Shown piece after piece: positions 1 to 12,251 of a DNA stretch of 64,000 nt. A program made the position numbers and the translations under genes. Every line of letters starts with the position of its first letter. Within the stretch, counting starts at the first letter, position 1. Origin of the DNA: a virus. Location: positions 1 through 64,000 of IMG/VR virus record IMGVR_UViG_3300047322_000252; one strand, 5' to 3'. The notes beneath the pieces are model-generated. The model saw only the letters and a list, made by a program, of their open reading frames with translations. It had not been told where the DNA came from and ran no database searches.

Positions 1-1
1 T

Positions 2-91
2 CTTCTCGGACCCGAACTGGCGATTGCCGGACTATGCGCAGCCATCGGCGCTGCCTTCATTCGACTCACTCATCGACGTGCCAACCCCTGA
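2..91 (+). CDS. partial membrane protein (C-terminal end only)
   Basis: An open frame enters from the left edge and ends at TGA 89-91. The 29 visible codons encode a hydrophobic Ala/Ile/Leu-rich stretch followed by a basic tail (RLTHRRANP), which looks like the last transmembrane segment of a small membrane protein. The next gene starts 14 bases after the stop behind an AAGGAAG ribosome-binding site, so the two are probably co-transcribed. The function is unknown because the N-terminus lies outside the window. Confidence 0.5.
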   Translation, partial: LLGPELAIAGLCAAIGAAFIRLTHRRANP

Positions 92-105
92 CAAGGAAGA
101 TCCCC

Positions 106-249
106 ATGCCCTCTGGAAGCCTCCCCCTCCCTCCCGCCCTGCCCAAGTGGATGACCCGCAGCCCCAAGAGCCAGCCGAACCGTGGCCTGGCCTTGGCTGG
201 CGCCGTGGGCGCCCTGGTGGTCACCCTCGTAGCACGGTCATTCAGGTGA
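106..249 (+). CDS. small single-pass membrane protein
   Basis: A 47-residue protein starting at ATG 106, with AAGGAAG about six bases upstream. Residues 1-25 are Pro/Ser-rich with basic residues. Residues 27-42 form a hydrophobic Ala/Gly/Val/Leu helix, followed by a short basic end (ARSFR), which suggests a membrane-anchored peptide. Its TGA overlaps the GTG start of the next gene, so translation is probably coupled. No family is recognised. Confidence 0.5.
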   Translation: MPSGSLPLPPALPKWMTRSPKSQPNRGLALAGAVGALVVTLVARSFR

Positions 250-641
250 CCGGGCACCAGTACCCACCGCCCCCGCCTGCTCCTGAGGCACCACCGGAGA
301 CGATGCACATCAACGACCTGACCCTGTCCGAGCAGTTGGACCACGTCCCCTGGTTCCACATCTACGTGCCCGATGACTACTTGGAGACGTCCGGCATCTA
401 CATGCTGACCAAGCGCCAGGCCCGTAAGCGGGACAAGGCCAAGGCCAAGGCCCGCAAGCTGCGCAACCCTCGCCTCGCACGTCGCCGCAACCGGCGTCAG
501 ATCATCACCTTCGTGATCTTCTTCATCGTCGTCCTTGGAGTCATCTTCAAGCTGCCCGAGGACCCGTTCAACAAGCACCCGGCGCCACCTTCCGGTCCCG
601 CCATCACGCAGCCCGCTACTGTGACAACAGTCACACCATAG
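246..641 (+). CDS. hypothetical membrane protein with proline-rich N-terminus and basic juxtamembrane region
   Basis: A 131-residue protein from GTG 246, which overlaps the upstream stop as GTGA. It opens with a Pro-rich segment, then an acidic middle, a strongly basic Lys/Arg stretch (about residues 60-88) and one transmembrane helix at about 90-107 (IITFVIFFIVVLGVIF). A short Pro-rich tail of about 20 residues follows. The basic segment next to the helix predicts a cytoplasmic N-terminus. The frame stays open upstream to position 3, so a longer form cannot be excluded, but the coupled GTG fits the neighbours better. Function unknown. Confidence 0.6.
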   Translation: MTGHQYPPPPPAPEAPPETMHINDLTLSEQLDHVPWFHIYVPDDYLETSGIYMLTKRQARKRDKAKAKARKLRNPRLARRRNRRQIITFVIFFIVVLGVIFKLPEDPFNKHPAPPSGPAITQPATVTTVTP

Positions 642-653
642 GGGGCCTTGGAG

Positions 654-863
654 ATGACCGAACTGCACCGCTACCACGAGGTCTGGATCAACGTGGCCCG
701 AGCCACCAGGGCCGAGCGAGGCAACCGTCCGTCCCAGGTCACGCTCACCTTCGACAATGACCTGGCCGTGGCTGAGTTCCTAGAGAGCATCTGCACCGGC
801 CACGAGCTTGTGGGCGGTGGAGTGCGCCACCAGGAAGGGCTGCACTGCCCTGTACACCCATGA
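654..863 (+). CDS. hypothetical small protein
   Basis: A 69-residue protein starting at ATG 654. A GGGGG tract about ten bases upstream could serve as ribosome-binding site, and a TTG at 648 is an alternative start. It is a soluble-looking mixed alpha/beta sequence with a basic middle and Cys/His residues near the C-terminus. Its stop overlaps the next start (ATGA at 860-863). No family is recognised. Confidence 0.6.
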   Translation: MTELHRYHEVWINVARATRAERGNRPSQVTLTFDNDLAVAEFLESICTGHELVGGGVRHQEGLHCPVHP

Positions 864-1120
864 GGGTGGACCGTGATGGCCTGGGCCTGGGCGTGTTCGC
901 CACGCTCGCCTGCGGTGGCCTGTATGTGTGCTACGACGCTGCCGGTCGAGTGGACAGGCCCACGGCGCTGGTAGCCATGGGCGTGTTCCTGGTGATGGCG
1001 GTGCTGGCCTGTCACTTCCTGCTCAACCTCATGGACCGCTTCGACAAGTGGCGTGAGCAGGCCATTGACACTGACAGCGAAGATGAGTCGAAAGACCTAG
1101 AAGATGCGGTTGTGTTCTAA
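860..1120 (+). CDS. small membrane protein with two transmembrane helices
   Basis: An 86-residue protein with two hydrophobic segments (about residues 9-24 and 35-56) and an acidic C-terminal tail. The tail residues IDTDSED are encoded by a copy of the 14-base dispersed repeat (1063-1076), so the repeat DNA is part of the gene. Start and stop overlap neighbours in the usual ATGA manner. The palindromic promoter of the next transcription unit lies across its stop codon. Function unknown. Confidence 0.65.
   Translation: MRVDRDGLGLGVFATLACGGLYVCYDAAGRVDRPTALVAMGVFLVMAVLACHFLLNLMDRFDKWREQAIDTDSEDESKDLEDAVVF
1063..1076 (+). repeat. dispersed 14-base repeat, copy 1
   Basis: Exact CATTGACACTGACA inside the 3' end of the 860-1120 gene, in the direction of transcription. 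Confidence 0.8.
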
Positions 1121-1146
1121 CAACACACTCGCTACTATTCATACTC
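1111..1146 (+). promoter_or_regulatory. palindromic-box promoter for a leaderless gene
   Basis: TGTGTTCTAACAACACA (1111-1127) has 6-base inverted arms. TACTAT at 1133-1138 is a plausible -10, placed 20 bases from the box core start as at 5561 and 7068. Transcription would start at or next to ATG 1147. Confidence 0.6.
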
Positions 1147-1728
1147 ATGAGCACCGACTACGAGTACACCCTCCCCCGAGAGGTCGCTGTCCCTGAGTGG
1201 CCTGAGCGGGTCAAGAACGTCACCATGACCGTCGTCTACCCCAAGGTGACCGGCCGACTGGAACTGTGCGCCATGGACACCGATGACGTGTTCGTGGAAG
1301 GCGACCTGACCTACCGGGGGCACGGCTACCGGATCAAGTTCATCCACACCAACGACCAGGGCCAGCCCAAGGGCTACTGGTACGCCCGCAATGAGGCCGA
1401 GCGTGCCGCCAAGGGCGACAGCAACAGCCAGGTCTACGGCGTGATCCCCCAGGACGGCACCGTGGACTTCGAGCTTGCCCGGGCCATGGGCGATGCCCCC
1501 AAGACCTTCGTGCGTCCCCTGCTGGACGCCGTGGCCGACACGGTGCTGCGGTACCTGTGCTACGAGCCGACCAAGACCCACGCCGCCGAGGCCCGCAAGG
1601 CCAGTCTCGTCCAGAACCTCAACCGCAAGGCCGAGGCGTACAACCGTCTCGCCAAGGGTGCCGAGGCTGCCCTGGCCGAGTACGAGGCGGCGCTGGCCGC
1701 TGTCGAGAGCATCGAGGGGGTGAAATGA
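1147..1728 (+). CDS. conserved-looking hypothetical protein with C-terminal coiled coil
   Basis: A 193-residue soluble protein, the first gene behind the palindromic-box promoter. No ribosome-binding site precedes ATG 1147 and the -10 TACTAT ends eight bases upstream, so a leaderless mRNA is likely. The first 140 residues look globular with alternating beta-type stretches. The last 50 are Ala/Glu/Lys-rich and predict a coiled coil. Its stop overlaps the next ATG. No domain is recognised. Confidence 0.75.
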   Translation: MSTDYEYTLPREVAVPEWPERVKNVTMTVVYPKVTGRLELCAMDTDDVFVEGDLTYRGHGYRIKFIHTNDQGQPKGYWYARNEAERAAKGDSNSQVYGVIPQDGTVDFELARAMGDAPKTFVRPLLDAVADTVLRYLCYEPTKTHAAEARKASLVQNLNRKAEAYNRLAKGAEAALAEYEAALAAVESIEGVK

Positions 1729-1922
1729 CAGACCTCCCTCCCCCCGCACCCAAGTGGTACGAGAAGCACGAGAACATCGTGATCCTCGCCACGTGGATGG
1801 CCGACCAGGGCAACACCGCTCACACCGTGGTGGACGCCATCGAGACGCCGTGGAGCTACGAGGACGAGTTCAACCTCGCCCTCGCTGCCCTGGCCGAGCA
1901 GGAACCGGCCGAGCAGGCCTGA
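1725..1922 (+). CDS. hypothetical small acidic protein
   Basis: A 65-residue protein starting at ATG 1725 and overlapping the upstream stop (ATGA). After a Pro-rich start it has a helical region (KYWEKHEN-type charged start, then alternating Ala/Leu) and an acidic end. It is the last gene of this two-gene unit. The following 240 bases are non-coding. Function unknown. Confidence 0.6.
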   Translation: MTDLPPPAPKWYEKHENIVILATWMADQGNTAHTVVDAIETPWSYEDEFNLALAALAEQEPAEQA

Positions 1923-1947
1923 TGTGACAACAGTCACTGCTGCCTGA

Positions 1948-1984
1948 CGTTGTGAGAACACAACGATCCGGTACCATTGACATT
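1948..1984 (+). promoter_or_regulatory. palindromic box and -10 upstream of structured RNA
   Basis: CGTTGTG-AGAA-CACAACG (1948-1965) is a perfect 7-base inverted repeat. TACCAT at 1972-1977 is a possible -10. A start about seven bases later would fall at the first base of the closing stem of the RNA at 1984. Confidence 0.5.
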
Positions 1985-1988
1985 GACA
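1975..1988 (+). repeat. dispersed 14-base repeat, copy 2
   Basis: Exact CATTGACATTGACA overlapping the putative transcription start and the 5' strand of the RNA closing stem. Confidence 0.8.
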
Positions 1989-2136
1989 GCGGGGTGGTGC
2001 GAAAGTAAGCCTCCCCAAGGCAGTACCCCATCGACCCGGTTGTGGCCGGGCTACGAGAGGGGAGTGGAGCGGTCCGACGTATCGCCTGGCTCATCCCAGG
2101 CAGAGTAGGCAAGGTCGGCACACTGCCCCGCTGTCA
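1984..2136 (+). ncRNA. candidate structured leader or non-coding RNA
   Basis: Bases 1984-1999 pair with 2121-2136 over 16 positions (two G-U), closing a 120-base interior. Inside are CTCCCC/GGGGAG (2011-2016 with 2059-2064) enclosing CCCGG/CCGGG (2035-2039 with 2046-2050), and CCGAC/GTCGG (2074-2078 with 2114-2118) enclosing GCCTGG/CCAGGC (2084-2089 with 2096-2101). No convincing open frame covers it. It ends 30 bases before the GTG of the next gene, so it may be a 5' leader. No known RNA family is recognised. Confidence 0.5.
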
Positions 2137-2165
2137 CCAACACCCCTGACCGAGAAAGGCCCACC

Positions 2166-2786
2166 GTGGCACAGACCCAGCACATCAAGAGCGCCCGCAA
2201 GACCAAGGACGGCGACCGGCCCACGTGTCACACGTGCCACAAGCCCATCGAGGTCGGCCAGGGCTACTACAAGAACAGCCCGAGCCGGTTCTCTGCCACG
2301 TACTCCTGGCACGAGGGCTGCCCCGGACCCAGGGCCAGCACCCTGGAATCCAACGAGAAGCGTGGCGCTGCCTACGCTGCCTGCGAGGACGCCGACGACG
2401 CCGTGGAGGCCATCGATGGCGTCCTGGACATTCGAGATGGCGGCGAGCCGGTCGAGGTCACCATCGAGGCCCGAGTCAAGTACGTGATGGAGTGCCTGGG
2501 CGATGCGTTCACCGTCCTGGGCGACGGCATCCAAGAGGCCGCTGAGATGTGGCGTGAGAGCGCCAGCAACATCGAGGAAGGCTTCGGTCACGAGACTGAG
2601 CGCTCCCAGGAGATGAACGACCACGCCGACGTCTACGACGACGCCGCCAGCGAGGCCAGTGACAACCTGCTGGACCAGATCACCGAGTGGGACCCCGACG
2701 CCGAGATGGACTTCGATGAGTGGCTGGACCAGGCCAAGGCCGAGGCCCACGACGCCATCGATGGCGTGTACGGGATGATCGACTGA
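2166..2786 (+). CDS. hypothetical acidic protein with N-terminal CxxC zinc motif
   Basis: A 206-residue protein from GTG 2166, with GAGAAAGG upstream. Residues near 20-30 carry CHTCHK, and a later His/Cys pair (HEGC) could complete a zinc site. The rest is strongly acidic and helical, with repeated DAxDG and Glu/Asp-rich segments. It is the first gene downstream of the structured RNA at 1984-2136, which may control it. No enzymatic motif is seen. Confidence 0.7.
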   Translation: MAQTQHIKSARKTKDGDRPTCHTCHKPIEVGQGYYKNSPSRFSATYSWHEGCPGPRASTLESNEKRGAAYAACEDADDAVEAIDGVLDIRDGGEPVEVTIEARVKYVMECLGDAFTVLGDGIQEAAEMWRESASNIEEGFGHETERSQEMNDHADVYDDAASEASDNLLDQITEWDPDAEMDFDEWLDQAKAEAHDAIDGVYGMID

Positions 2787-2787
2787 C

Positions 2788-3063
2788 ATGAGCACCACCT
2801 ACCCCTGCCTCTTGCCCACCGTGCCCGCCAGCCGCTGGTACTTCAACATCACCCGCATCACCGGCACGGCCACCAAGGTCAACGAGATGAACGAGCCGGT
2901 GATCTACTGCTCAGTCGAGGCCGACAGCGTCGAGGGAGCCGAGCGTCACGCCCTGGCCTGCCTGCACCACGACTACGAGGACAACCTGGAAGGTGCCCAA
3001 GCCAGCGCCTCCCAGGCCGGTGGTGGCTACTTCGTCACCGTTCGGTTGAGGCCGTACCTGTGA
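2788..3063 (+). CDS. hypothetical small protein
   Basis: A 91-residue protein from ATG 2788, two bases after the upstream stop. It has a beta-rich first half (RWYFNITRIT) and an acidic helical centre (DSVEGAERHALACLHHDYEDN), ending in a beta-like tail. This arrangement resembles small single-domain phage proteins, but no family can be named. Its TGA overlaps the next start as TGATG. Confidence 0.65.
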   Translation: MSTTYPCLLPTVPASRWYFNITRITGTATKVNEMNEPVIYCSVEADSVEGAERHALACLHHDYEDNLEGAQASASQAGGGYFVTVRLRPYL

Positions 3064-3479
3064 TGGGCGCTCCCGATCGTCGTGACCCACGCAACAACCC
3101 CGAGGACGCCTACCAGGCGTTCATGAACATGCCCAACAGCGAGTGGAACGGGCTGATCGCCAGTCTGTTCCACGGTGGCGTGCTCACCCCGGCCGAGCAG
3201 GAGGGCTTCGACCGTGCGATCAAGAACCGTGCGGCGCTGAATGGGCCGAACGGCCTAGACCCTGACGTGGTTGTTGTCAGAACGTCTGATACACTGTTGT
3301 CAGAACAACAGCGAGAGGACACCCCTGACATGGACGAGGAAGCAACCTGGATCGTCTCCATCGAGCGTCCGGACGGCACCACGTTCGTCTGGCAGGTGCA
3401 GGACATGGACCTATACGCCAGCATCGTCGGCGCCATCATCGACCTGACCGGCCACACGGCCGACGTGGTGGGTGCGTGA
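3063..3479 (+). CDS. hypothetical protein, possibly two modules joined across a promoter/operator
   Basis: One open frame of 138 residues from ATG 3063. The first part (about residues 1-65) is helical. The last 50 residues (from Met at 3330) form a separate beta-rich unit starting MDEEATWIVSIERPDG. Between them the DNA carries two palindromic boxes and a TACACT -10, followed by GAGAGGA and an in-frame ATG at 3330. The distal part could therefore be expressed alone. The linker peptide (VVVVRTSDTLLSEQQ) is the translation of that regulatory DNA. Confidence 0.6.
   Translation: MGAPDRRDPRNNPEDAYQAFMNMPNSEWNGLIASLFHGGVLTPAEQEGFDRAIKNRAALNGPNGLDPDVVVVRTSDTLLSEQQREDTPDMDEEATWIVSIERPDGTTFVWQVQDMDLYASIVGAIIDLTGHTADVVGA
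3272..3311 (+). promoter_or_regulatory. internal double palindromic box with -10
   Basis: TGTTGTCAGAAC occurs twice (from 3272 and from 3295). The second copy is a perfect 7-base inverted repeat, CTGTTGT-CAGA-ACAACAG (3294-3311). TACACT at 3290-3295 is a -10 candidate. All of it is inside an open frame. Confidence 0.5.
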
Positions 3480-3661
3480 TGGACGACACCACCGATCCCC
3501 GCTCACCTGGTGAGCGCCCCCGCAAGAACCAGTGCCAGATCAACGGCCTGGACGTGCGTGACATGGGCGACCGCCAGCTACTGCGTGAGCTACGCAAGCC
3601 CTGGGGACCCAACCTCATGGACATGATCCGAGCCGAGGCCCGGTGGCGCAACCTGGTGTGA
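3479..3661 (+). CDS. hypothetical small basic protein
   Basis: A 60-residue protein starting at ATG 3479, which overlaps the upstream TGA. The N-terminal third is Pro/Arg-rich. The remainder (DRQLLRELRKPWGPN and a short helix) is basic and amphipathic, so nucleic-acid binding is possible but unproven. A copy of the dispersed repeat follows its stop. Confidence 0.55.
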   Translation: MDDTTDPRSPGERPRKNQCQINGLDVRDMGDRQLLRELRKPWGPNLMDMIRAEARWRNLV

Positions 3662-3671
3662 ACGCTCACAC

Positions 3672-3685
3672 CATTGACACTGACA
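3672..3685 (+). repeat. dispersed 14-base repeat, copy 3
   Basis: Exact CATTGACACTGACA ten bases after the stop at 3661. It is directly followed by a GGCC-GAAT-GGCC hairpin (3686-3697). Confidence 0.8.
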
Positions 3686-3757
3686 GGCCGAATGGCCTAT
3701 GTCACTCCTGGTGGTGGCGTTGTACCCTCATGACTGAACCCTAAGAAAGGGGACTGC

Positions 3758-4381
3758 ATGAGACGACGCACCACCGTTGGGGCGATCATGTTGGTGGCGG
3801 GCTTTGGCCTCGTTGGTGGTGCTGCGTTCATGGGCACCGCTGGTGCTACTGGCAACGTGGAGCACTGCACCGATGGCAATGGGCAGGACGGGGTCAACAA
3901 CCCGCACTGCACCACGGACGACAGCACCCCGCCGTCGTCCACGCCGGACAGCACCCCACCGTCGAGCACCGTGGACAGCAGCGTGCCGGACAGCACGCCG
4001 CCCTCGTCCACGCCTCCACCCTCCGACAGTGTCCCCCCGCCCGACTCGTCGGTGCCGCCGCCTGACAGCAGCGTGCCACCGCCTGACTCATCGGTCCCGC
4101 CCACCACGCCGCCTTCGGTGGTGGACACCACGGTGCCCCCCAGCATCGTGACGACCGTGCCCCCGAGCGTGGTGACCACGCCAGCGCCTACCCCCACCAC
4201 GGCGCCAGCACCGGACACCACGCCCGCCCCGGCTGCCCCAACGACCCCGCCCGGATCGTTGCCCAGCACCGGCTCCACCACCCTCCCCCTCCTGCTTGGC
4301 TCCCTTGGCGCCCTGTTGGCCGGTGGTGGACTGATCGTCCTGACCAGGCGGAATGAGGTCGGGACAGCGCTCGCAGCGTAG
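3758..4381 (+). CDS. sortase-anchored (LPSTG) surface protein
   Basis: A 207-residue protein with an N-terminal signal peptide (MRRR plus a hydrophobic core to about residue 30) and a short Cys-containing head. A long Pro/Ser/Thr/Asp stalk follows, with repeated PPDSSVP and STPP units. It ends with LPSTG at residues 168-172, a hydrophobic helix and an RR-containing tail. This is the standard layout of a Gram-positive cell-wall-anchored protein. Sortase would link it to host peptidoglycan, exposing the stalk on the infected cell. Superinfection exclusion or surface alteration are inferences. It has its own leader region and a strong terminator, so it is an independent unit. Confidence 0.85.
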   Translation: MRRRTTVGAIMLVAGFGLVGGAAFMGTAGATGNVEHCTDGNGQDGVNNPHCTTDDSTPPSSTPDSTPPSSTVDSSVPDSTPPSSTPPPSDSVPPPDSSVPPPDSSVPPPDSSVPPTTPPSVVDTTVPPSIVTTVPPSVVTTPAPTPTTAPAPDTTPAPAAPTTPPGSLPSTGSTTLPLLLGSLGALLAGGGLIVLTRRNEVGTALAA

Positions 4382-4407
4382 GCGGATCGCTCTGCGAGCA
4401 ACACACG

Positions 4408-4439
4408 GCGCCCCTGGTCACAGCGACCAGGGGCGCTTT
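4408..4439 (+). terminator. intrinsic terminator after the LPSTG gene
   Basis: A perfect 12-bp stem (4408-4419 with 4425-4436) with loop ACAGC, followed by TTTG. Confidence 0.85.
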
Positions 4440-4471
4440 GTAATATAGTCCGAATGACCTACGAAATCCGG

Positions 4472-4499
4472 TTGTGTTCTGACAACAGTTCGCTATACT
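4472..4499 (+). promoter_or_regulatory. palindromic-box promoter of structured RNA B
   Basis: TGTTCTGACAACA at 4475-4487, then TATACT at 4494-4499 (19 bases from box start to -10 start). Transcription should begin near 4505. Confidence 0.65.
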
Positions 4500-4504
4500 G
4501 ATCC

Positions 4505-4774
4505 TTGTAAGCAACGCAGCACCTTGACAACTGAGCCGGGACCCACGAAGCACCATGCAAGTACCCCGATGAAAGCGCCCTGACGGTTAACGACCACGTC
4601 TGGCCCATGCGAATCAGCGCTACGGCCAGCGATCCCTGAACGAAGGCGTGTGGAGGGCGAAATCCGCCGTGAGAGAAGTGGGAGAACAGCCCGAACGAAA
4701 GCCGAGAGTATCCCCGGAGTGCGCACGATGGGGGGAGGGTAGGTGGACAAGTAGGACTGGCCCGGCTCAGTTGT
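4505..4774 (+). ncRNA. candidate large structured RNA with 14-bp closing stem
   Basis: Bases 4527-4540 (ACAACTGAGCCGGG) are perfectly complementary to 4761-4774, closing about 220 bases. The interior has local stems such as GGCG-AAATC-CGCC and TCCCC/GGGGA around TGCGCA, several GAA-rich loops and no convincing coding frame. It has its own promoter and ends 36 bases before the next ATG. Its arrangement matches the RNA at 1984-2136. It could be a stand-alone RNA or a regulatory leader. No known family is recognised. Confidence 0.55.
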
Positions 4775-4809
4775 GAGAGTGTTGTGAGAACCTGAAAGGA
4801 CCCTGACCC

Positions 4810-5556
4810 ATGAGCAATCCCAAGAACCTGCAAGAACTGGCCGACAGCCTGGCCGAGCAAGCCCGCACCATTCGCCAGTCTGGTCCTGGCACCTACGCCG
4901 ACAGCTTCCAGCGGGCGGGCTATGCCGATGCCCTGTTGGACACGAGGGCCACGGTCCTCGCCATGATCGCTGAGCAGCGGCCCAAGGGTCTGCACAAGGC
5001 CAGCCCTGATCCCGACTACGCCCACCTGTGCATCCATTGCATGCTGAACATCAAGCACCTGCCTGCGGGCCAGGGCTGGGTCCACGAGGGCACCGGCATG
5101 GTGGTCGGTGACGGTCCTGCTGACGTGTGCCCCGAGTGTGACTGCCCGATTGACGACCATCACGAGGCCTGTTCACGCCTCATCGGTGGCGACGAGGTCA
5201 ACAACGCCAGCCCTGCCGTGGTGGCTGCCATGAACGAGGCCCTGGTGCGCTACCAGTACCAGGTGCTGGTCGATGGCACGCCCATGCAGCACGGCCCGTT
5301 CGACCCCACGAGTGCCCACCACCCACGCAGCGCTGCTGCTACGTACCAGGAAATCAACCCCGAGGCCACGGTGGTCATCCAGTACCGGGACAACGAGGGC
5401 GATGGCGTGTGGACCACCAATGAGCCGAAAGGCTCAGTTCTGATGCACTGCCACGATCCTCGTCACGATGAGCCGTGCCCCTTGCCTTGTGCTGCGTGCG
5501 AGGACGAGTGCGACCCGGCCTTCGCACGCAATGAGCCGAATGGCCTACCGGCCTGA
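4810..5556 (+). CDS. hypothetical cysteine/histidine-rich protein
   Basis: A 248-residue protein from ATG 4810, with GAAAGGA upstream. The N-terminus is helical. Residues about 77-120 hold CIHC, CPEC and DDHHEAC motifs, likely one zinc site. The C-terminus has a second cluster (HCHDPRHDEPCPLPCAACEDEC). The first gene after structured RNA B, it may be controlled by it. Two short GAAA/GAAT-loop hairpins (5421-5436 and 5535-5544) lie in the coding sequence. Function unknown; nucleic-acid binding is possible. Confidence 0.7.
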   Translation: MSNPKNLQELADSLAEQARTIRQSGPGTYADSFQRAGYADALLDTRATVLAMIAEQRPKGLHKASPDPDYAHLCIHCMLNIKHLPAGQGWVHEGTGMVVGDGPADVCPECDCPIDDHHEACSRLIGGDEVNNASPAVVAAMNEALVRYQYQVLVDGTPMQHGPFDPTSAHHPRSAAATYQEINPEATVVIQYRDNEGDGVWTTNEPKGSVLMHCHDPRHDEPCPLPCAACEDECDPAFARNEPNGLPA

Positions 5557-5558
5557 CG

Positions 5559-5593
5559 TGTGTTGTGACAACACATCAGGTACACTGACTCCC
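5559..5593 (+). promoter_or_regulatory. palindromic-box promoter for a leaderless gene
   Basis: TGTGTTGTGACAACACA (5559-5575) is a perfect 17-base palindrome. TACACT at 5581-5586 is the -10. ATG follows seven bases later with no ribosome-binding site. Confidence 0.75.
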
Positions 5594-5896
5594 ATGAGCA
5601 GATACACCACCCCTGGCCCCTGGTCCTGCATCAAGCGGACCAACATCACCGGCTTCTACGGCTCCCGCATCGGCGCCGTCCAGATCGAGACAGGCCCCCT
5701 CGTGGATGGTCGCAACGGCCAGCGCTACGAGGATGGCGCCCACAAGGTCACCGTCACCAAGAGGCCCGAGGCCTGCACTGGTGGCTGGCCCCGAGGCAAG
5801 ACGTTCAAGGGCGAGACGGCCTGGTCCAGCGCTGAGCGCTACCGGGACGACTGCGTCCACATGATGGAGAAGTACGCACGAGAGGAAGGCCTGTGA
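5594..5896 (+). CDS. hypothetical protein, leaderless start
   Basis: A 100-residue protein starting at ATG 5594, seven bases after a TACACT -10, so the mRNA is probably leaderless. The sequence is beta-rich at first (GFYGSRIGAVQIETGPLV), then a basic loop and a charged C-terminal helix. It begins an overlapping series of at least six genes running to 6991. No family is recognised. Confidence 0.7.
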   Translation: MSRYTTPGPWSCIKRTNITGFYGSRIGAVQIETGPLVDGRNGQRYEDGAHKVTVTKRPEACTGGWPRGKTFKGETAWSSAERYRDDCVHMMEKYAREEGL

Positions 5897-6138
5897 TGGC
5901 CCGCACACCCCGCCATAGCCCCTACGACCCGCAGTTCGCTGACAAGCCCGACCACGTGAGCGACAACACCTTCGACCTGGTCGGCAACATCATCGCCTTC
6001 GAGAATGGCGAACTGGACGAGGACGAGTGCATCGCTTTCTTCCAGCACCTGGTCAACACTGGCCTGGCCTGGTCCCTGCAAGGCACCTACGGCCGCACGG
6101 CCATGGCCCTGATCGAGGCCGGGCTGGTGACACGATGA
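5896..6138 (+). CDS. small conserved actinophage protein (DUF7417-like)
   Basis: An 80-residue protein whose core (DLVGNIIAFENGELDEDECIAFFQHLVNTG, then AWSLQGTYGRTA and ALIEAGLV) matches a small helical family common in actinobacteriophages, as I remember it. The family has no experimentally established role that I know of. The start ATG 5896 overlaps the upstream TGA, and its own TGA overlaps the next ATG. Confidence 0.8.
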   Translation: MARTPRHSPYDPQFADKPDHVSDNTFDLVGNIIAFENGELDEDECIAFFQHLVNTGLAWSLQGTYGRTAMALIEAGLVTR

Positions 6139-6386
6139 CCACGCCCTGGCAAGACGATCGCACGGTCGGCACCATCAACATCGGCCATGTCAATGTCAGT
6201 GACCTGCTGAGCAAGCTGGTCGAGTTCTCGCTGCGCTACGGCGCCGACCTGGACCTGTACATCGATGGCAACAACCTGGTCATCTTCGCCCCCCGGGGCG
6301 CCGCCACTCAGCCCCTCCCTTTGGAGGAACGCCGAGAGGTCGGCATGCACTGGCTGGCTGACATTCTTGGAAGGATCACACGATGA
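6135..6386 (+). CDS. hypothetical small protein
   Basis: An 83-residue protein from ATG 6135 (ATGA overlap). It has alternating beta (GTINIGHVNV) and helix (SDLLSKLVEFSLRYG) segments, a second beta pair (LDLYIDGNNLVIFAP) and a C-terminal helix. It looks like a compact alpha/beta fold. Function is not recognisable. It is translationally coupled to both neighbours. Confidence 0.6.
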   Translation: MTTPWQDDRTVGTINIGHVNVSDLLSKLVEFSLRYGADLDLYIDGNNLVIFAPRGAATQPLPLEERREVGMHWLADILGRITR

Positions 6387-6583
6387 GCACCTTGGAGGTC
6401 CACCACGACGAGGAAGTGGGCACCGTGCTGGTGGTCCAGCGCTACCAGCGTGCCCGAGTCGCATACCAGTGTGATGCGTGCATCACAGGCGGTCCCATCG
6501 TCAAGGGTGAGGTCTACCGCTACGTTTGGAGCATGTTGGAGGGCGACAGCCTGGTCCAGCGGTTCCACGCCGGGTGCGTCTAG
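6383..6583 (+). CDS. small putative zinc-binding protein
   Basis: A 66-residue protein from ATG 6383. CDAC in the middle and HAGC at the end could bind one zinc ion. The intervening GEVYRYVW stretch is beta-like. Small proteins with this layout are frequent in actinophages. Its TAG overlaps the GTG of the next gene. Confidence 0.6.
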   Translation: MSTLEVHHDEEVGTVLVVQRYQRARVAYQCDACITGGPIVKGEVYRYVWSMLEGDSLVQRFHAGCV

Positions 6584-6750
6584 TGCCCCGCCTGCGCCTC
6601 TTGGAGCCTCTTGGAGCGCCTTTGGAGCTATCGGCGCCCCGGAGGCCCAAGCTGGCCCAGGTGGCCGCTCAGTGCCCCTTCTGCCGTGGTGCTGGCTACC
6701 TGTACGGCCGAGTGCTGTGCCCCACGTGCGAGGGCGCTGGTGTCGCCTAA
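6583..6750 (+). CDS. small DnaJ-type zinc-finger protein
   Basis: A 55-residue protein from GTG 6583 (TAGTG overlap). It carries two CxxCxGxG units, CPFCRGAG and CPTCEGAG, the motif of DnaJ cysteine-rich zinc fingers, 11 residues apart. The N-terminal half is basic and Leu/Pro-rich. No J-domain is present. Such mini proteins may bind protein or RNA; the actual partner is unknown. Confidence 0.7.
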   Translation: MPRLRLLEPLGAPLELSAPRRPKLAQVAAQCPFCRGAGYLYGRVLCPTCEGAGVA

Positions 6751-6991
6751 GACGTCCAGCGGGTGGTTCGGCCTGGCGTGCTTCAACGCCCTGAGCCACG
6801 AGCAGCAGCGCATGCTGATCGAGGACGGCGTGCTGCCGTTCGGCCGCAAGTGGCCCGAGGGCGCCGGGTGCGAGCGTGGTGCGAGCGTGGCGATCGAGGT
6901 CGAGGGCGACGAGGCACCAGGGCCACGCTTCTACTGCGTGCCGTGCGGCATCGAGTACCTGCGCACCGTCACCATTGACACTGACACGTGA
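6740..6991 (+). CDS. hypothetical protein with paired cysteines
   Basis: An 83-residue protein from GTG 6740, overlapping the previous gene by 11 bases. It has a helical start and a central GCERGASVAIEVEGD segment. FYCVPCGIEYL follows; with the earlier Cys it may form a zinc site. The C-terminal TIDTDT is encoded by a copy of the dispersed repeat. It ends the overlapping gene series that began at 5594. Confidence 0.6.
   Translation: MSPKTSSGWFGLACFNALSHEQQRMLIEDGVLPFGRKWPEGAGCERGASVAIEVEGDEAPGPRFYCVPCGIEYLRTVTIDTDT
6973..6986 (+). repeat. dispersed 14-base repeat, copy 4
   Basis: Exact CATTGACACTGACA at the 3' end of the 6740-6991 gene. A GTTGTCACAAC palindrome follows at about 6994. Confidence 0.8.
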
Positions 6992-7067
6992 CCGTTGTCA
7001 CAACACGCTCCGTGGTCGATACCTCACACCGTTGTGAATGGTCCGAAATACCTACGAGTATGACGAC

Positions 7068-7100
7068 TGTTCTGACAACAACGGGACTAGACTCGCTGGT
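7068..7100 (+). promoter_or_regulatory. palindromic-box promoter for a leaderless gene
   Basis: TGTTCTGACAACA (7068-7080) and TAGACT (7088-7093), 20 bases start to start. ATG follows seven bases after the -10. Confidence 0.75.
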
Positions 7101-7871
7101 ATGACCAGCAAGCCCGCCTCCGAGAGGCAGTACGCCTACCTGACCACCCTGCTGAACGAGCGTGACCCGGCCGTGACCGGCGTCCCCGACGTCGCAGCCT
7201 TCATCCAGTCCCTGCGGGACAACGGCGCCACCAGCGCCCAGGTGTCGGCCATCATCAAGGCCGTCCTGGCCCTGCCTAAGGCCGCTGCGCCTGCCGGTGC
7301 TGCCCCTGCGGGCCGGACCAACAACTACGGCGCCAAGTGCGTCAAGTGCGGCGTCTACGTGCCTGCCGGTGCTGGCGTCATCACCAAGAACAGCGCTGGC
7401 AAGTGGGACACCACCCACGTCCAGCCCTGCCCCGAGGTCGAGGCCAAGCTGCCCACGCCTGACGTGAGCACCCTGACCGAGGGTGTCTACGTGGACGAGG
7501 ACGGCACCGTGTGGAAGGTCTACACCGGCCGTCAGTCGGGGCGCCTGCAAGCTGCCACGCTCACCAACCACGGCGACCACGGCACCTTCGAGTTCGTGCG
7601 TGGTGGCCTGCGCATGGTGGCCGATGCCCTCGTGGCCCGGACCATGCGCCTGCTCACCCAGGACGAGGCCGCTGCGTTCGGGCGCCTGAACGGCTTCTGC
7701 TGCAACTGCGGCCTGGCGATCGAGGACGATCGCAGCGTGGCTGCCGGGTACGGACCCAAGTGCGCCACCAACCTGGGCTGGTGGTACCCCACCTACGAGG
7801 AAGCCGCCGCCATCCTGGGGCGCCCTGTCACCAAGCCTTCCGGCGTGGTGGTCCAGCCCCCCGCTGCGTGA
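7101..7871 (+). CDS. DUF6011-like zinc-binding protein
   Basis: A 256-residue protein with a leaderless start at ATG 7101. The N-terminal helix (SERQYAYLTTLLNER) is the kind often found at the start of actinophage accessory proteins. A Pro/Ala linker is followed by CVKCGVYVP and a central beta-rich domain. The C-terminal GFCCNCGLAIEDD with GYGPKC matches the DUF6011 zinc-binding pattern, as I remember it. The role is unknown. It is a single-gene unit between the palindromic promoter and a hairpin terminator. Confidence 0.75.
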   Translation: MTSKPASERQYAYLTTLLNERDPAVTGVPDVAAFIQSLRDNGATSAQVSAIIKAVLALPKAAAPAGAAPAGRTNNYGAKCVKCGVYVPAGAGVITKNSAGKWDTTHVQPCPEVEAKLPTPDVSTLTEGVYVDEDGTVWKVYTGRQSGRLQAATLTNHGDHGTFEFVRGGLRMVADALVARTMRLLTQDEAAAFGRLNGFCCNCGLAIEDDRSVAAGYGPKCATNLGWWYPTYEEAAAILGRPVTKPSGVVVQPPAA

Positions 7872-7884
7872 CCGTTGTCACAAC

Positions 7885-7911
7885 AGGGATAGGGCCGAAA
7901 GGCCCATCCCT
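7885..7911 (+). terminator. hairpin with GAAA tetraloop
   Basis: GGGCC-GAAA-GGCCC (7892-7905) extended by AGGGAT/ATCCCT around one bulge. There is no T tract. It lies between a stop and the next promoter. Confidence 0.6.
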
Positions 7912-7918
7912 GAGTGTG

Positions 7919-7944
7919 TGTTCTGACAACACGCCCGATAGACT
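7919..7944 (+). promoter_or_regulatory. palindromic-box promoter
   Basis: TGTTCTGACAACA (7919-7931) and TAGACT (7939-7944), 20 bases start to start. It precedes a gene with an ordinary ribosome-binding site (GAGAGGA). Confidence 0.7.
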
Positions 7945-7982
7945 GACGCTTGCCAGTCACCCACCGAGAGGAACCCCTGACC

Positions 7983-8255
7983 ATGCCCACGCACCGCACG
8001 CCCCCCACGCCCATCCGGCGCCACCTGAGCCGCCAGCACACGAACACCGTGGCTGCCAACGCCGTCATCTCGCAGGCGTTCTTCCCCGGCATGGGCTGGT
8101 CGAACCTGACCCACCTGCCCCTGCCCACCCGTAGCGCCATCTGCGTGCTGCGTGACCGGGGCGCCACCATGCTCGCCGTGAGCTACGCCAAGCCTCACAC
8201 CCGTAACCGGGTGACGGCTGACTTCACCGTGGCCGAGTGCCTGGTGGCGTCATGA
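7983..8255 (+). CDS. hypothetical small basic protein
   Basis: A 90-residue protein from ATG 7983, with GAGAGGA eight bases upstream. The N-terminus is Pro/Thr/Arg-rich. The rest is mixed, with a beta-like end (NRVTADFTVAECLV). It begins a four-gene overlapping series reaching 9128. No family is recognised. Confidence 0.6.
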   Translation: MPTHRTPPTPIRRHLSRQHTNTVAANAVISQAFFPGMGWSNLTHLPLPTRSAICVLRDRGATMLAVSYAKPHTRNRVTADFTVAECLVAS

Positions 8256-8476
8256 GCACCGTCCGGCACCCCAACCACGTGGTGATGGCGACCGGCTCCG
8301 AGGTCATCCACGCCGCCTCTGACGTGGCCCTGGCCCAGCGCCGCCACGTCCTGGCCTGCAACGGTCGAGCCATCCAAGGCGGTGCCTGGGATGACGTTGT
8401 GACCAAGGTCACCTGCAAGGCCTGCCTCCGGGCGCTCGCCTCCGGGCGGGCCGTGTGGATCGGGCGTGCGTCATGA
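8252..8476 (+). CDS. small putative zinc-binding protein
   Basis: A 74-residue protein from ATG 8252. It has a beta segment HVVMATGS, then LACNGRAI and VTCKACLRAL near the end. The C...CxxC spacing suggests zinc binding. It resembles the short CG...CxxC proteins encoded on the other strand near 20 kb. Function unknown. Confidence 0.6.
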   Translation: MSTVRHPNHVVMATGSEVIHAASDVALAQRRHVLACNGRAIQGGAWDDVVTKVTCKACLRALASGRAVWIGRAS

Positions 8477-8655
8477 TCCACGCCCTTTCCGCCGATGCCA
8501 CCTTCCCCGCCATGGTGGTGACCGTCACCTGTGAGGACGGCGCCATCAGGCACGCACCCTTCGCCAGCATGGCCGAGGCCCGCACCTGGGCCGAGTGGGG
8601 TCACTGCTGCACCAACCGCCACCGCTTCACGAGTCACCAGGAGAACCCGTCATGA
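8473..8655 (+). CDS. hypothetical small protein
   Basis: A 60-residue protein from ATG 8473 (ATGA overlap). It has a beta strand (MVVTVTCEDG), then a helix (SMAEARTWAEWG) and a Cys/His-containing end. This resembles a single small alpha/beta unit. No family is recognised. Coupled to the gene on each side. Confidence 0.55.
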   Translation: MIHALSADATFPAMVVTVTCEDGAIRHAPFASMAEARTWAEWGHCCTNRHRFTSHQENPS

Positions 8656-9128
8656 CCACCACCAACAACTGCCCCGTCTGCGGGACCGAGGTCACCGTGT
8701 GGGCCGACCTGTCGGGCGGGATCACCGTCAACTTCCGGTGCCCGAACGAGGCCTGCCCGGCAGGCAAGGCACCGTGGGACACGCCCGAGCCGGGCGTGGA
8801 CTACGAGCCATCGGTCTGCATGAACTGCGGCGAGGACGAGCACACGGCCGAGGAACTGGCCGAGTGCATCGACTCAGTGACCAATCCCTGGCCCGGCATC
8901 GAGCGCAACGTGCCGGTCACCCCGGCCCTGCGGCGCCGGTTCGTCTCCCGTAACTGGTGCTTCGGCTACAACGGCCACAGCATCTACCAGCTTGGCACCC
9001 TGCCTGCGGACCTGTACGCCGTGACCTGGGACCGGGATCACAACCCGGTGATCACCGGCCGCATCAAGGGCGCCAGCACACAGAGCACCGCCGACCTGAT
9101 CGCTTTCCTCTCCGAGTGGGAAGGCTGA
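8652..9128 (+). CDS. hypothetical zinc-ribbon protein
   Basis: A 158-residue protein from ATG 8652. The N-terminus has CPVCG and CPNEAC, a four-cysteine ribbon, and CMNCGEDE follows around residue 57. The C-terminal 70 residues form an alpha/beta region with an aromatic start (NWCFGYNGHSIY). Nucleic-acid binding is plausible from the ribbon; nothing more specific can be read. Confidence 0.65.
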   Translation: MTTTNNCPVCGTEVTVWADLSGGITVNFRCPNEACPAGKAPWDTPEPGVDYEPSVCMNCGEDEHTAEELAECIDSVTNPWPGIERNVPVTPALRRRFVSRNWCFGYNGHSIYQLGTLPADLYAVTWDRDHNPVITGRIKGASTQSTADLIAFLSEWEG

Positions 9129-9131
9129 GCG

Positions 9132-9206
9132 ATGACGGACGAGCAGCGGGCCGCTGTGTACTTCCTCGTGATCAACCGGGGCGAGGAAGGGGACGACGAC
9201 GAGTAG
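9132..9206 (+). CDS. putative 24-residue acidic peptide
   Basis: ATG 9132 opens a 24-codon frame three bases after the upstream stop. It encodes an amphipathic start (TDEQRAAVYFLVINRG) and an acidic tail (EEGDDDE). Codon choice matches neighbouring genes. Small size makes it uncertain. Confidence 0.4.
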   Translation: MTDEQRAAVYFLVINRGEEGDDDE

Positions 9207-9207
9207 C

Positions 9208-9480
9208 TGACCAGGCCACGGTGCGCCGCAAGCACCGACACGACTGGTCAATCAGTTCTCGCCCGCAAGGGCGAGGGCTGGTGAGAGTGCATCGCCCCCG
9301 GGTGGTGCGTTGTCACCAGCCCCATGGGCCACGGTGCGCACTGCCCCGGCAAGGGTGCTGCGCAGCGGCTGGCATGGCCCAGCACCAGGACAAGCACACA
9401 CGGCGCATTGCCGTGCGACGTCTGTGCCCCTGTGTGTCGTCCGTTCGAGTCGGGCATGGGGTATTACGTGTGTGAATCTC
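9208..9480 (+). ncRNA. hairpin-dense non-coding region, candidate RNA C
   Basis: At least four stems lie in 270 bases: TGACCAG/CTGGTCA enclosing GGTGC/GCACC, CTCGCCC-GCAA-GGGCGAG (about 9259-9276), GGGCTGGTGA/TCACCAGCCC (10 bp, about 9277-9323) with an inner 8-bp stem, and TGGGCCA/TGGCCCA. The region separates the 8652-9206 genes from the helicase gene. No promoter was identified immediately upstream. It could be a structured RNA or a DNA site. Confidence 0.35.
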
Positions 9481-9486
9481 GTCACA

Positions 9487-9517
9487 CTAGGCCACAATAC
9501 CTAGTGTTCTGACAACA
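9487..9517 (+). promoter_or_regulatory. inverted repeat and palindromic box before the helicase gene
   Basis: CACTAGG/CCTAGTG arms surround ACA-rich DNA at about 9484-9506, directly followed by TGTTCTGACAACA (9505-9517). No clear -10 sits 20 bases downstream, so this box may act as an operator. Confidence 0.45.
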
Positions 9518-9540
9518 GAAAGGGCCTCTGACCAGCTATT

Positions 9541-11100
9541 ATGTCTCTCATGAGCAACGCACCCATCACCCCTGACAGCCCCCTGGCGGGCCTGTTCGCC
9601 CAGGTCGTCGGCACCGCTGCCGTCGTCGCCGCCACCAACAACCTGGCCCCGGTCCTGTCGTTCGACACCCTGGCCCTCCCCCTCATGGCCCACCAGGTCG
9701 AGGCCGTCCAGCGCATCCACCACGACGTCGCCACCTACGGCGGGAGCTACGTGGGCGATGACATGGGCCTTGGCAAGACGTTTGAGGCCCTAGCGGCTGT
9801 TGCCCTGGCCCCGAACAGCTACCCGGCCCTGATCATCTGCCCGCCCTCTGTCACGCTGAACTGGCGCAACGAGGCCCGCCGCCTGATCCCCGGCGTCCGG
9901 GTCGAGGTGCTGAGTGGCACCAAGCCGGTGCTGCCTGCGCCCGCCGACATCTACGTCATGGGCGACAGTGTGCTCGCCGCATGGGCTGGCCTGGCGGTCG
10001 AGAACTACGTGGACAACCGGGACGTGCCCCGCAAGCGTGACGTCGTCCGGGGCGTGCTCACCGCCATGGGCATCCGGGCGCTGGTGGTGGACGAGGCCCA
10101 CCGCTTCAAGTCCTACAAGGCCCAGCGGGCACGTGCGGCCATGGCGTTCGCCGCCACCCTGCCCCGGGGCGCCCAGCGCATCCTGCTGAGCGGCACCGCC
10201 GTGGACAACCGCTCCGAGGAACTGGCGACGCAGATCCGCATCGCTGGCGTGGATCACGTGTTCGGCGGCTGGTTCAACTTCCTGGAAACGTACGCACCCA
10301 AGCAGGGCTATGCCCGGGTGAGCCGTCACAGTGACGAGCTTCACGCCAAGCTGGTGAGCACCTTCTACCTGCGCCGCCTGCGCACCGAGGTCCTGAGCCT
10401 GCCCGGCAAGGGGCGCAAGCTGGTGGCTGCGGCCATGGCCGGTAAGGCTGCCAGTGACTACCTCGCCGCCCAGGACGATCTCATCGCCTACGTGCGGGGG
10501 ACCAAGGGCCGCAAGGCTGCCGAGGTCGCCAGTCGGGCCGAGGCCCTGGTCCTGCTGACCACCCTGCGCCGCCTGGTCGGTGAGGCCAAGGTGGCTGCCG
10601 TGGTCGCCTACGTCCAGGACCTGGTGGACGACGGGGAGCAGGTGTTCGTGGCTGCCTGGCATGCGCCCATGGTCAAGGCCCTGACTGACGCCTTCGGCGC
10701 CGTGAACGTGGTCGGCGGTATGAAGGTCGAGGACAAGCAGGCGGCGGTCGAGGCGTTCCAGAACGGCACCGCCCGGGTGCTGGTGGGCAACATCGTGGCC
10801 GCTGGTGTGGGCATCACGCTCACCGCTGCCCGCCACGTAGTGGTGGCAGAACTGCCGTGGACGCCGGGAGCGCTGGCCCAGGTCGAGGACCGGCTGGACC
10901 GTATCGGCCAGACACGTGAGGTCGTCTCCCACATCATGCTGGGGACGAACGGCATCCCCACGGTGGACGAGCGCATCATGGCGATCCTCAACGAGAAGGC
11001 GGCAGTCACCGGCATGATCATGGACGGCAAGGCTGCCAGCATCATCGATGACGACACGATCAGCGCCGCCCTGCTGGACAGCTACCGGGACGCCGCCTAG
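9541..11100 (+). CDS. SNF2-family DEAH helicase/translocase (SMARCAL1-like)
   Basis: A 519-residue protein with the SNF2 motif set: Walker A DDMGLGKT (73-80), motif Ia ICPPSV, Walker B VDEAH (183-187), motif III LSGT (216-219), motif V GNIVAAGVGITLT (416-428) and motif VI ELPW...QVEDRLDRIGQ (437-457). These define an ATP-driven double-stranded DNA translocase. The compact size without extra domains resembles the SMARCAL1/annealing-helicase-like proteins of phages. It may help replication, recombination or fork remodelling. ATG 9541 is used here; Met-4 is an alternative. It is flanked on both sides by hairpin-rich non-coding DNA. Confidence 0.9.
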   Translation: MSLMSNAPITPDSPLAGLFAQVVGTAAVVAATNNLAPVLSFDTLALPLMAHQVEAVQRIHHDVATYGGSYVGDDMGLGKTFEALAAVALAPNSYPALIICPPSVTLNWRNEARRLIPGVRVEVLSGTKPVLPAPADIYVMGDSVLAAWAGLAVENYVDNRDVPRKRDVVRGVLTAMGIRALVVDEAHRFKSYKAQRARAAMAFAATLPRGAQRILLSGTAVDNRSEELATQIRIAGVDHVFGGWFNFLETYAPKQGYARVSRHSDELHAKLVSTFYLRRLRTEVLSLPGKGRKLVAAAMAGKAASDYLAAQDDLIAYVRGTKGRKAAEVASRAEALVLLTTLRRLVGEAKVAAVVAYVQDLVDDGEQVFVAAWHAPMVKALTDAFGAVNVVGGMKVEDKQAAVEAFQNGTARVLVGNIVAAGVGITLTAARHVVVAELPWTPGALAQVEDRLDRIGQTREVVSHIMLGTNGIPTVDERIMAILNEKAAVTGMIMDGKAASIIDDDTISAALLDSYRDAA

Positions 11101-11137
11101 TGGCCTCATCCCTACAGCGTGCATGAGCACGCCACCC

Positions 11138-11151
11138 CATTGACACTGACA
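11138..11151 (+). repeat. dispersed 14-base repeat, copy 5
   Basis: Exact CATTGACACTGACA after the helicase stop and before the terminator. Confidence 0.8.
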
Positions 11152-11174
11152 CACTCTCACCCCACTACCCCCAC

Positions 11175-11204
11175 GAGCACCCGCCCCCACCAGGGCGGGT
11201 GCTC
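11175..11204 (+). terminator. terminator hairpin after the helicase gene
   Basis: GAGCACCCGCCC (11175-11186) pairs perfectly with GGGCGGGTGCTC (11193-11204) across loop CCACCA. The sequence after it contains TCTGTTGT. Confidence 0.75.
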
Positions 11205-11726
11205 TCTGTTGTGACACCAGGCGAGCCTAATCGGCGCCCATGGGATGCCCACGGCATGAGGCAGAGTGATCAAGTGCATGCCCTGTCTCACCGTCACCCC
11301 CTCCCCTACTGCCTAGCTATGTCAGGCAGTGACACATGCCACACCCCTCCCACCCTAGTGAGCGTGGCGTAGCCACTCTCCCCTCTGCCTGTCGTGCCTG
11401 CTCATGCCCCTATGGGCATGACCTAGATCAACCCTGGCCCCGGTTGTCAAGGCAGTTGTGACAACAGCCTGCCTTGACATACGCCCTCACCTGTGAAACA
11501 CCAGGTCACAGACCTGTTGTGATAACTGTCACACCACATGTGCCTCATGGCACATGTGTTGACAACATGCCCTGACCTGCGGCTACGCCGCCTGTCAAGG
11601 GCTGTGAATCATGTCACACCCCTGTGACATTAATCACCCTGACCGGGCTGCGCCCGGGCTAGGACTCCCATGTGCAAGGGGGGTTTCCCGGGGGACTCGT
11701 GTAGTGGTATATGCACTCGTGTGTGG
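11205..11726. other. 520-base non-coding region with a cluster of inverted repeats
   Basis: No convincing gene. Perfect inverted repeats include ACTGCCT/AGGCAGT (about 11309-11331), TCATGCCC-CTAT-GGGCATGA (about 11402-11421), TGTCAAGGCAG/CTGCCTTGACA (11445-11455 with 11469-11479, enclosing TTGTGACAACA), CACATGTGCC-TCAT-GGCACATGTG (11535-11558), GCGGC/GCCGC and CCGGGC/GCCCGG. Several TTGACA and TTGTGACAA elements are interspersed. It lies between a helicase gene and a DNA-binding regulator gene. It may be a replication origin, a regulatory hub or both. Confidence 0.5.
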
Positions 11727-11732
11727 TACAAT
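11727..11732 (+). promoter_or_regulatory. -10 element of the Arc-like regulator gene
   Basis: TACAAT seven bases before ATG 11740. No ribosome-binding site lies between, so a leaderless mRNA is predicted. Confidence 0.6.
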
Positions 11733-11739
11733 GTGGTGC

Positions 11740-12057
11740 ATGAGCGTGAACACCTCCATACGCCTGCCTCTGGACTTGAAGGAGCGGCTACAGGCTGCTG
11801 CTGACGAAGAGGGCAGGAGCCTGAACAACTACATGATCCGCATCCTCCAAGAAGCCTCGAACCTCAGGGAGGGCCATTCGACCCTTGGCAGTTCCCCTGC
11901 CCCCGATAGTATGAAGGGTATGTCCCGAGCGGTGCCGTCGAAGAGAGCGTCCAAGAGGGCCACGGCCCATCAACGGCTGGTGCAGGAGCGGGATGAAGCC
12001 GCTCGCCAGGAGATCAAGAACCGGGTCCTGGGCCAGAGAGAGGGAGGGCCGTCATGA
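11740..12057 (+). CDS. Arc/CopG-type ribbon-helix-helix DNA-binding protein
   Basis: A 105-residue protein. Residues about 5-40 (SIRLPLDLKERLQAAADEEGRSLNNYMIRILQEA) match the ribbon-helix-helix fold: a short beta strand, helix, turn with SLNNY, helix. Such proteins dimerise and bind short tandem operator sites through the beta strands. The C-terminal 65 residues are basic, then charged and helical. It is a candidate to bind the dispersed repeats, whose CATTGA-CATTGA tandem half-sites suit this fold; that link is inference. It heads a long overlapping series of small genes. Confidence 0.8.
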   Translation: MSVNTSIRLPLDLKERLQAAADEEGRSLNNYMIRILQEASNLREGHSTLGSSPAPDSMKGMSRAVPSKRASKRATAHQRLVQERDEAARQEIKNRVLGQREGGPS

Positions 12058-12251
12058 CCTTGACCGCTGACGGAGATCCGAAGCTCCTGGCCATCCGGAA
12101 GCTCTACGCCGCAGGGGAGGCCCTGCTGGAAGCCCAGACTGCTCTGGTGAGTGCTGGGATGGCTGACGTCGTGGCCCTCCAGGAGTGTCGCATCAACATC
12201 CGAGTGATGCTGGTCGAGATGGCCTTTCAGGGAGAGGGGCGGGTCGAATGA
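12054..12251 (+). CDS. hypothetical small helical protein
   Basis: A 65-residue protein from ATG 12054 (ATGA overlap with the regulator gene). Almost entirely helical, Ala/Leu/Glu-rich, with heptad-like spacing from residue 10 to 60, so it probably dimerises or binds a partner. No family is recognised. Co-transcribed with the ribbon-helix-helix gene. Confidence 0.6.
   Translation: MTLTADGDPKLLAIRKLYAAGEALLEAQTALVSAGMADVVALQECRINIRVMLVEMAFQGEGRVE

Follow-up and report, generated by a model that had tools for sequence, protein, structure and literature searches.

RNA B, at positions 4527 to 4774 of the first 64,000 nucleotides of IMG/VR virus record IMGVR_UViG_3300047322_000252 (the window), is in our reading a stand-alone, trans-acting phage RNA that forms homodimers and offers an invariant loop to a conserved partner, an interpretation to which we give a probability of about 0.7 on the strength of sequence comparison. 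An initial annotation of the window had proposed a structured RNA with a closing stem at this place, and that proposal is now strongly supported: RNA B has homologues, its closing stem and six more helices covary, and the alignments strongly support a noncoding RNA with about 215-370 nucleotides (nt) between the closing strands. The annotation had not included the palindromic loop, the invariant internal loop or the boxA-like leader.

The closing stem is exact, as first described. ACAACUGAGCCGGG (4527-4540) is perfectly complementary to CCCGGCUCAGUUGU (4761-4774) over 14 base pairs (bp). No other perfect 14-bp inverted repeat whose arms are separated by 60-300 nt occurs in the 64-kilobase (kb) window; shuffled windows hold a mean of 0.1. 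The RNA of the window folds only moderately better than its shuffles (z = -2.3); it is comparative evidence that settles the structure. Visual inspection of about 20 diverged sequences gave seven helices, which lie in the window as follows.

4532 to 4769, plus strand: match to covariance model R1, 183.2 bits, E = 6e-42 (R1 search)
4527 to 4540, plus strand: closing helix P1, 5' strand (covariation and sequence)
4554 to 4557, plus strand: P2, 5' strand, CAUG (alignment, covariation)
4565 to 4567, plus strand: P3, 5' strand, CCC (alignment, covariation)
4575 to 4579, plus strand: P4, 5' strand, GCGCC (alignment, covariation)
4580 to 4598, plus strand: near-invariant internal loop J4/5, 5' side, CUGACGGUUAACGACCACG (homologue comparison)
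4600 to 4605, plus strand: P5, 5' strand, CUGGCC; the length of this hairpin varies among homologues (alignment, covariation)
4624 to 4629, plus strand: P5, 3' strand, GGCCAG (covariation)
4630 to 4644, plus strand: near-invariant internal loop J4/5, 3' side, CGAUCCCUGAACGAA (homologue comparison)
4645 to 4649, plus strand: P4, 3' strand, GGCGU (covariation)
4655 to 4657, plus strand: P3, 3' strand, GGG (covariation)
4668 to 4671, plus strand: P2, 3' strand, CGUG (covariation)
4687 to 4692, plus strand: P6, 5' strand, CAGCCC, with one C-A mismatch in the window copy (covariation)
4712 to 4715, plus strand: P7, 5' strand, CCCC (covariation)
4719 to 4726, plus strand: palindromic apical loop of P7, GUGCGCAC, predicted homodimer kissing loop (sequence, covariation)
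4730 to 4733, plus strand: P7, 3' strand, GGGG (covariation)
4754 to 4759, plus strand: P6, 3' strand, GGACUG (covariation)
4761 to 4774, plus strand: closing helix P1, 3' strand (covariation and sequence)

In a structure-blind MAFFT alignment both sides change in 32 of 35 pairs and 87.3% of cells are paired, with a covariation score of 0.631 (0.180 when shuffled, at most 0.134 when slid); each measure is higher than in any of the 500 shuffles or the slid controls, although the test is not fully independent because the helices were picked from the same sequences. The model alignment gives both-side changes in 34 of 35 pairs, with 92.3% of cells holding and a score of 0.605 against 0.140 shuffled. 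Model R1 recovers every homologue, and five later-found members that stood outside model building match it at E 4e-18 to 2e-41. Between P4 and P5, the J4/5 loop hardly varies, reading CUGACGGYUAACGAYCAC(G) opposite AYCCCUGAAYGAA; loosening the search pattern inside it brought no gain, and looser patterns around it yielded few or no extra members.

In a distant blastn search two conserved blocks were matched in 190 records of mycobacteriophages; the homologous query L018 covers a larger part of RNA B, and query L034 adds Myrna, Phabba and ScoobyDoobyDoo. Homologues are found in about 190 mycobacteriophages of Bixzunavirus and Myrnavirus, and in their GenBank records the locus either falls in a gap left without annotation (Myrna gp8-gp9, ScoobyDoobyDoo gp13-gp14) or lies under small hypothetical open reading frames (ORFs). 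Among IMG/VR contigs, 33 match an 18-base pattern taken from the conserved block, nearly all of them real, and gapped patterns find further contigs; as these scans looked for exact patterns, they will have missed members with an altered core. Five bacterial contigs that match the 18-base pattern were discarded, the rest of the RNA being absent on inspection (a simple estimate predicts about seven chance matches), and ScoobyDoobyDoo gave a weak second match among apparent genes (551-700), which was judged spurious. R1 found nothing in 395 genomes of an actinobacterial class, searched with stricter filters and without a positive control, and nothing in the tail-sheath relatives BRock, LuckySocke and pSt2308 (Streptomyces phages) or GMA6 and DalanDe (Gordonia phages). 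RNA B is confined to virus records in the present searches.

The evidence for dimerisation comes from the apical loop of P7. Its octamer takes 11 forms among 30 RNAs, namely GUGCGCAC, GUGGCCAC, GUUGCAAC, GCUGCAGC, GUCCGGAC, GGUGCACC, CGUGCACG and four less perfect versions, whose self-complementarity is limited to a 6-nt core or includes wobbles; each form can pair with itself over 6-8 nt, in some cases counting wobbles. Across a 19-sequence alignment 76 of 76 cells pair, and covariation reaches 0.673 against 0.151 shuffled. The adjacent central bases read GC in 11 sequences and CG in 8. Neighbours in one chain are unable to pair with each other, so this exchange is best explained by a homodimeric kissing loop. 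A self-complementary, covarying loop without possible intrachain pairing is a mark of homo-oligomeric ornate RNAs of the GOLLD, ROOL and OLE type, and RNA B carries it. Two homologues, L057 and L059, differ at 7 of about 238 positions, and four of these changes convert GUGGCCAC to GUCCGGAC (GGCC to CCGG) with the palindrome kept, a swap found between RNAs otherwise 98-99% identical. Such clustering of four base changes in the loop suggests selection on loop alleles. Judged by these patterns, RNA B very probably homodimerises through its palindromic loop in a symmetric kissing interaction.

The same argument has been made for GOLLD L21a and OLE L9.3 (PMC12286853). GOLLD is homo-oligomeric and has a symmetric kissing loop (L21a) whose central dinucleotide switches between GC and CG (Kretsch et al. 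2025, PMC12286853); ROOL is an oligomer with conserved intermolecular kissing loops, and OLE is a homodimer whose palindromic loop L9.3 covaries among GGCC, GAUC and AGCU (PMC12286853).

The alternative that fares best, which we nonetheless regard as improbable, is a monomeric structured RNA whose palindromic loop is the site of a symmetric protein, or whose palindrome works at the DNA level. A dimeric protein could read the palindrome, and the phage has palindromic DNA boxes elsewhere; however, the octamer always forms the apex of a hairpin that covaries, and its 11 versions keep no single protein specificity while self-complementarity is kept, which argues against such a site.

Comparison of the homologues shows that P1 closes the RNA, that the P2-P3-P4-P5 arm holds the nearly invariant P4/P5 internal loop and that the P6-P7 arm carries the always self-complementary apical loop. 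For the homodimer we envisage that two copies of RNA B would join by symmetric kissing of their palindromic loops, and the dimer, which would thereby present the invariant internal loop twice, may serve as a binding site for a conserved partner. In Myrnavirus-type members (L030, L034, L035 and L063) an extra hairpin is inserted whose loop is a second palindrome, GUCAUGAC, in the context GGGGA..CCC; more tentatively, dimers could be extended through it into larger assemblies. The inserts of L030, L034 and L035 share a CGYGUCAAACWG motif with that of L001 (Bixzunavirus).

Carrier records searched whole contain one full copy each, and neighbouring genes show no conservation outside close relatives, the larger neighbour clusters being ORFs that overlap or abut RNA B itself; the single copy and the lack of a conserved neighbour point to an RNA that acts in trans. 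Several observations weigh against the proposed homodimer and its independent expression. The palindrome might instead be a protein site, several loci have neither a boxA-like leader nor an obvious promoter, and the complementarity of the conserved loops to ribosomal RNA (rRNA) is no better than in shuffles or by chance, for which reason we set aside antisense action on rRNA and rRNA mimicry by these loops. In the window, moreover, an ORF begins 35 nt 3' of P1 and the scan shows no terminator in between, so RNA B and the downstream gene may be cotranscribed.

This last arrangement, together with the ORFs that lie within 20-60 nt at several loci, would suit a cis-acting leader, riboswitch-like or attenuator, for the gene just downstream. 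We think this unlikely because neighbouring genes are unconserved: the downstream genes are non-homologous between groups, and no conserved class of downstream gene, as a riboswitch or other cis leader would have, was found. In L049, furthermore, a strong terminator comes right after the RNA, and the next annotated gene of Myrna starts about 0.3 kb beyond its RNA. A functional link between RNA B and the Cys-rich gene downstream of it is not borne out either, as the gene has no phage homologue by tblastn and homologous loci have differing neighbours.

We give still less credence to a ribozyme or self-processing RNA with the invariant internal loop as its active site. Near-invariant loop nucleotides amid variable helices do recall catalytic cores, but a protein- or RNA-binding site would have the same appearance, no Rfam ribozyme matched, and the inspected loci show no intron-like break in a gene or transfer RNA (tRNA); the idea of a tRNA intron was dropped because most loci have no tRNA next to RNA B. 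A packaging-type RNA acting like the phi29 packaging RNA (pRNA), which is also oligomeric by loop-loop pairing, would fit the predicted intermolecular pairing and the occurrence in virus records, but is highly unlikely, as pRNA is a feature of small podoviruses and pairs through two distinct loops complementary to each other, whereas the RNA B loop is self-complementary and the window phage has a terminase, a portal and a contractile tail.

Comparison with known families sets RNA B apart. Whole Rfam scans at the gathering threshold covered the window and 11 loci, and E-value scans were made of 6 other loci and the window segment. Neither the gathering nor the permissive thresholds brought up anything credible at RNA B, no family scored above the gathering cut-off, and a call to sR36 (E 0.12, far under the cut-off) is a chance one. 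Neither ARAGORN nor Rfam finds a transfer-messenger RNA or tRNA at RNA B. The tRNAs of the window are about 27 kb away and only isolated loci such as L039 have one nearby; the location in or beside a tRNA island that is typical of GOLLD and ROOL was looked for and is not seen. The GOLLD model RF02032 has no match in 15 carrier genomes, in a search without a positive control, and none in the Rfam scans, and the ROOL and OLE models have none in the Rfam scans of the window and loci.

The closest kind is nevertheless that of the homo-oligomeric GOLLD, ROOL and OLE, and RNA B is none of these. GOLLD (RF02032) is likewise a phage-encoded structured RNA of open function with a GC/CG-switching kissing loop, but it often exceeds 800 nt and lies near tRNA islands, whereas RNA B is mostly without an adjoining tRNA. 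ROOL, too, is a phage or prophage RNA of open function with kissing loops; RNA B is smaller and has another secondary structure. OLE offers a covarying palindromic loop and the same type of evidence, but occurs in the genomes of bacteria, not of phages, and is tied to OLE-associated proteins. The dimerisation initiation site of human immunodeficiency virus 1, a packaging element of retroviral genomic RNA, has a palindromic apical loop that forms homodimers by kissing, with alternative palindromes in different lineages; we claim no homology with it. Going by open-access papers, the RNA B family is previously undescribed.

RNA B covaries very strongly. About 190 mycobacteriophages that rank among the most studied carry it, where it has been left as gaps or small hypothetical ORFs. 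If it dimerises, it would be a small and tractable addition to the few natural RNA-only oligomers of open function. Its carriers can be grown on Mycobacterium smegmatis mc2 155, which makes tests by expression, deletion and loop swaps feasible now, and it is because it can be tested directly in standard laboratory phages that RNA B matters.

The signals at the 5' side of RNA B in the window are these.

4408 to 4436, plus strand: 12-bp GC-rich hairpin behind the upstream gene, followed by TTTGTAATA, probable terminator with a weak T-tract (sequence; no call in the strict scan)
4472 to 4487, no strand assigned: palindromic operator-like box TTGTGTTCTGACAACA, which recurs upstream of other genes (sequence)
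4494 to 4499, plus strand: putative -10 element TATACT (sequence)
4524 to 4534, plus strand: boxA-like UUGACAACUGA in the outer 5' strand of P1, compared with the actinobacterial rRNA leader UUUGAGAACUCAAUAG (sequence comparison)

The initial annotation had credited RNA B with its own promoter and with a terminator that isolates it from the gene upstream, and both are probable. The hairpin and its TTTGTAATA tail are visible, but the T-tract is too weak for the scanner; the palindromic box and TATACT are present, but the -35 element, upstream of TATACT and overlapped by the box, is weak and the strict promoter scan makes no call. At L049 a promoter matching 11/12 precedes the RNA and a 12-bp terminator directly follows it, and at L018 the preceding promoter matches 10/12.

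With UUUGAGAACUCAAUAG, taken from two actinobacterial 16S leaders, as reference, at least 10 of 16 bases match in the leader or outer P1 strand at 18 of 30 loci compared with 9 of 425 control segments, a count that is inflated because the loci share ancestry. The boxA-like leader, where present, may recruit Nus factors, with host rRNA antitermination factors helping transcription, and P1 might work like an rRNA leader-trailer helix that is trimmed by a duplex-cutting ribonuclease; both are weaker steps of the scheme. An rRNA leader with boxA and a leader-trailer helix (on biogenesis, PMC10250234) is like RNA B in its boxA-like leader and long closing helix. The body of RNA B, however, is not rRNA and has no long words in common with it, and its boxA-like part, unlike the rRNA leader, sits inside the closing helix and is absent from some members. 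Only tentatively do we entertain a fuller scheme that would combine rRNA-like biogenesis (boxA leader and leader-trailer closing helix) with an RNA-only homodimer formed through an allele-specific kissing loop whose alleles change as blocks, each phage's RNA pairing with its own kind and the dimer offering the near-invariant loop to a conserved actinobacterial target in lytic growth.

The parallel that the initial annotation had seen with a second RNA, RNA A, and a mechanism common to both find no support: R1 gives RNA A 4.2 bits at best, and no homologue or look-alike of RNA A appears in phage records. The fold of RNA A (window 1985-2135) is closed by a long GACAGCGGGG/CCCCGCUGUC stem; RNA A is unrelated to RNA B and remains an isolated prediction.

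The window derives from a 118-kb virus record and encodes terminase, portal, major head and tail sheath proteins, the last nearest to those of Streptomyces phages such as BRock (about 35% identity). The IMG/VR contig L008 is 99.98% identical to window 1-12084; it and the window are one virus assembled twice. Directly upstream of RNA B, the gene at 3758-4381 (plus strand) encodes a secreted, Pro/Ser/Thr-rich phage protein that ends in an LPSTG signal for cell-wall sorting, on which Pfam Gram_pos_anchor scores just over its cut-off. Palindromic boxes of the TTGT(n)ACAA type recur in the window at 1110, 1950, 3297, 4472, 5563, 6995, 7875 and 11456, several of them just upstream of ORFs, and look like operators of a phage regulator.
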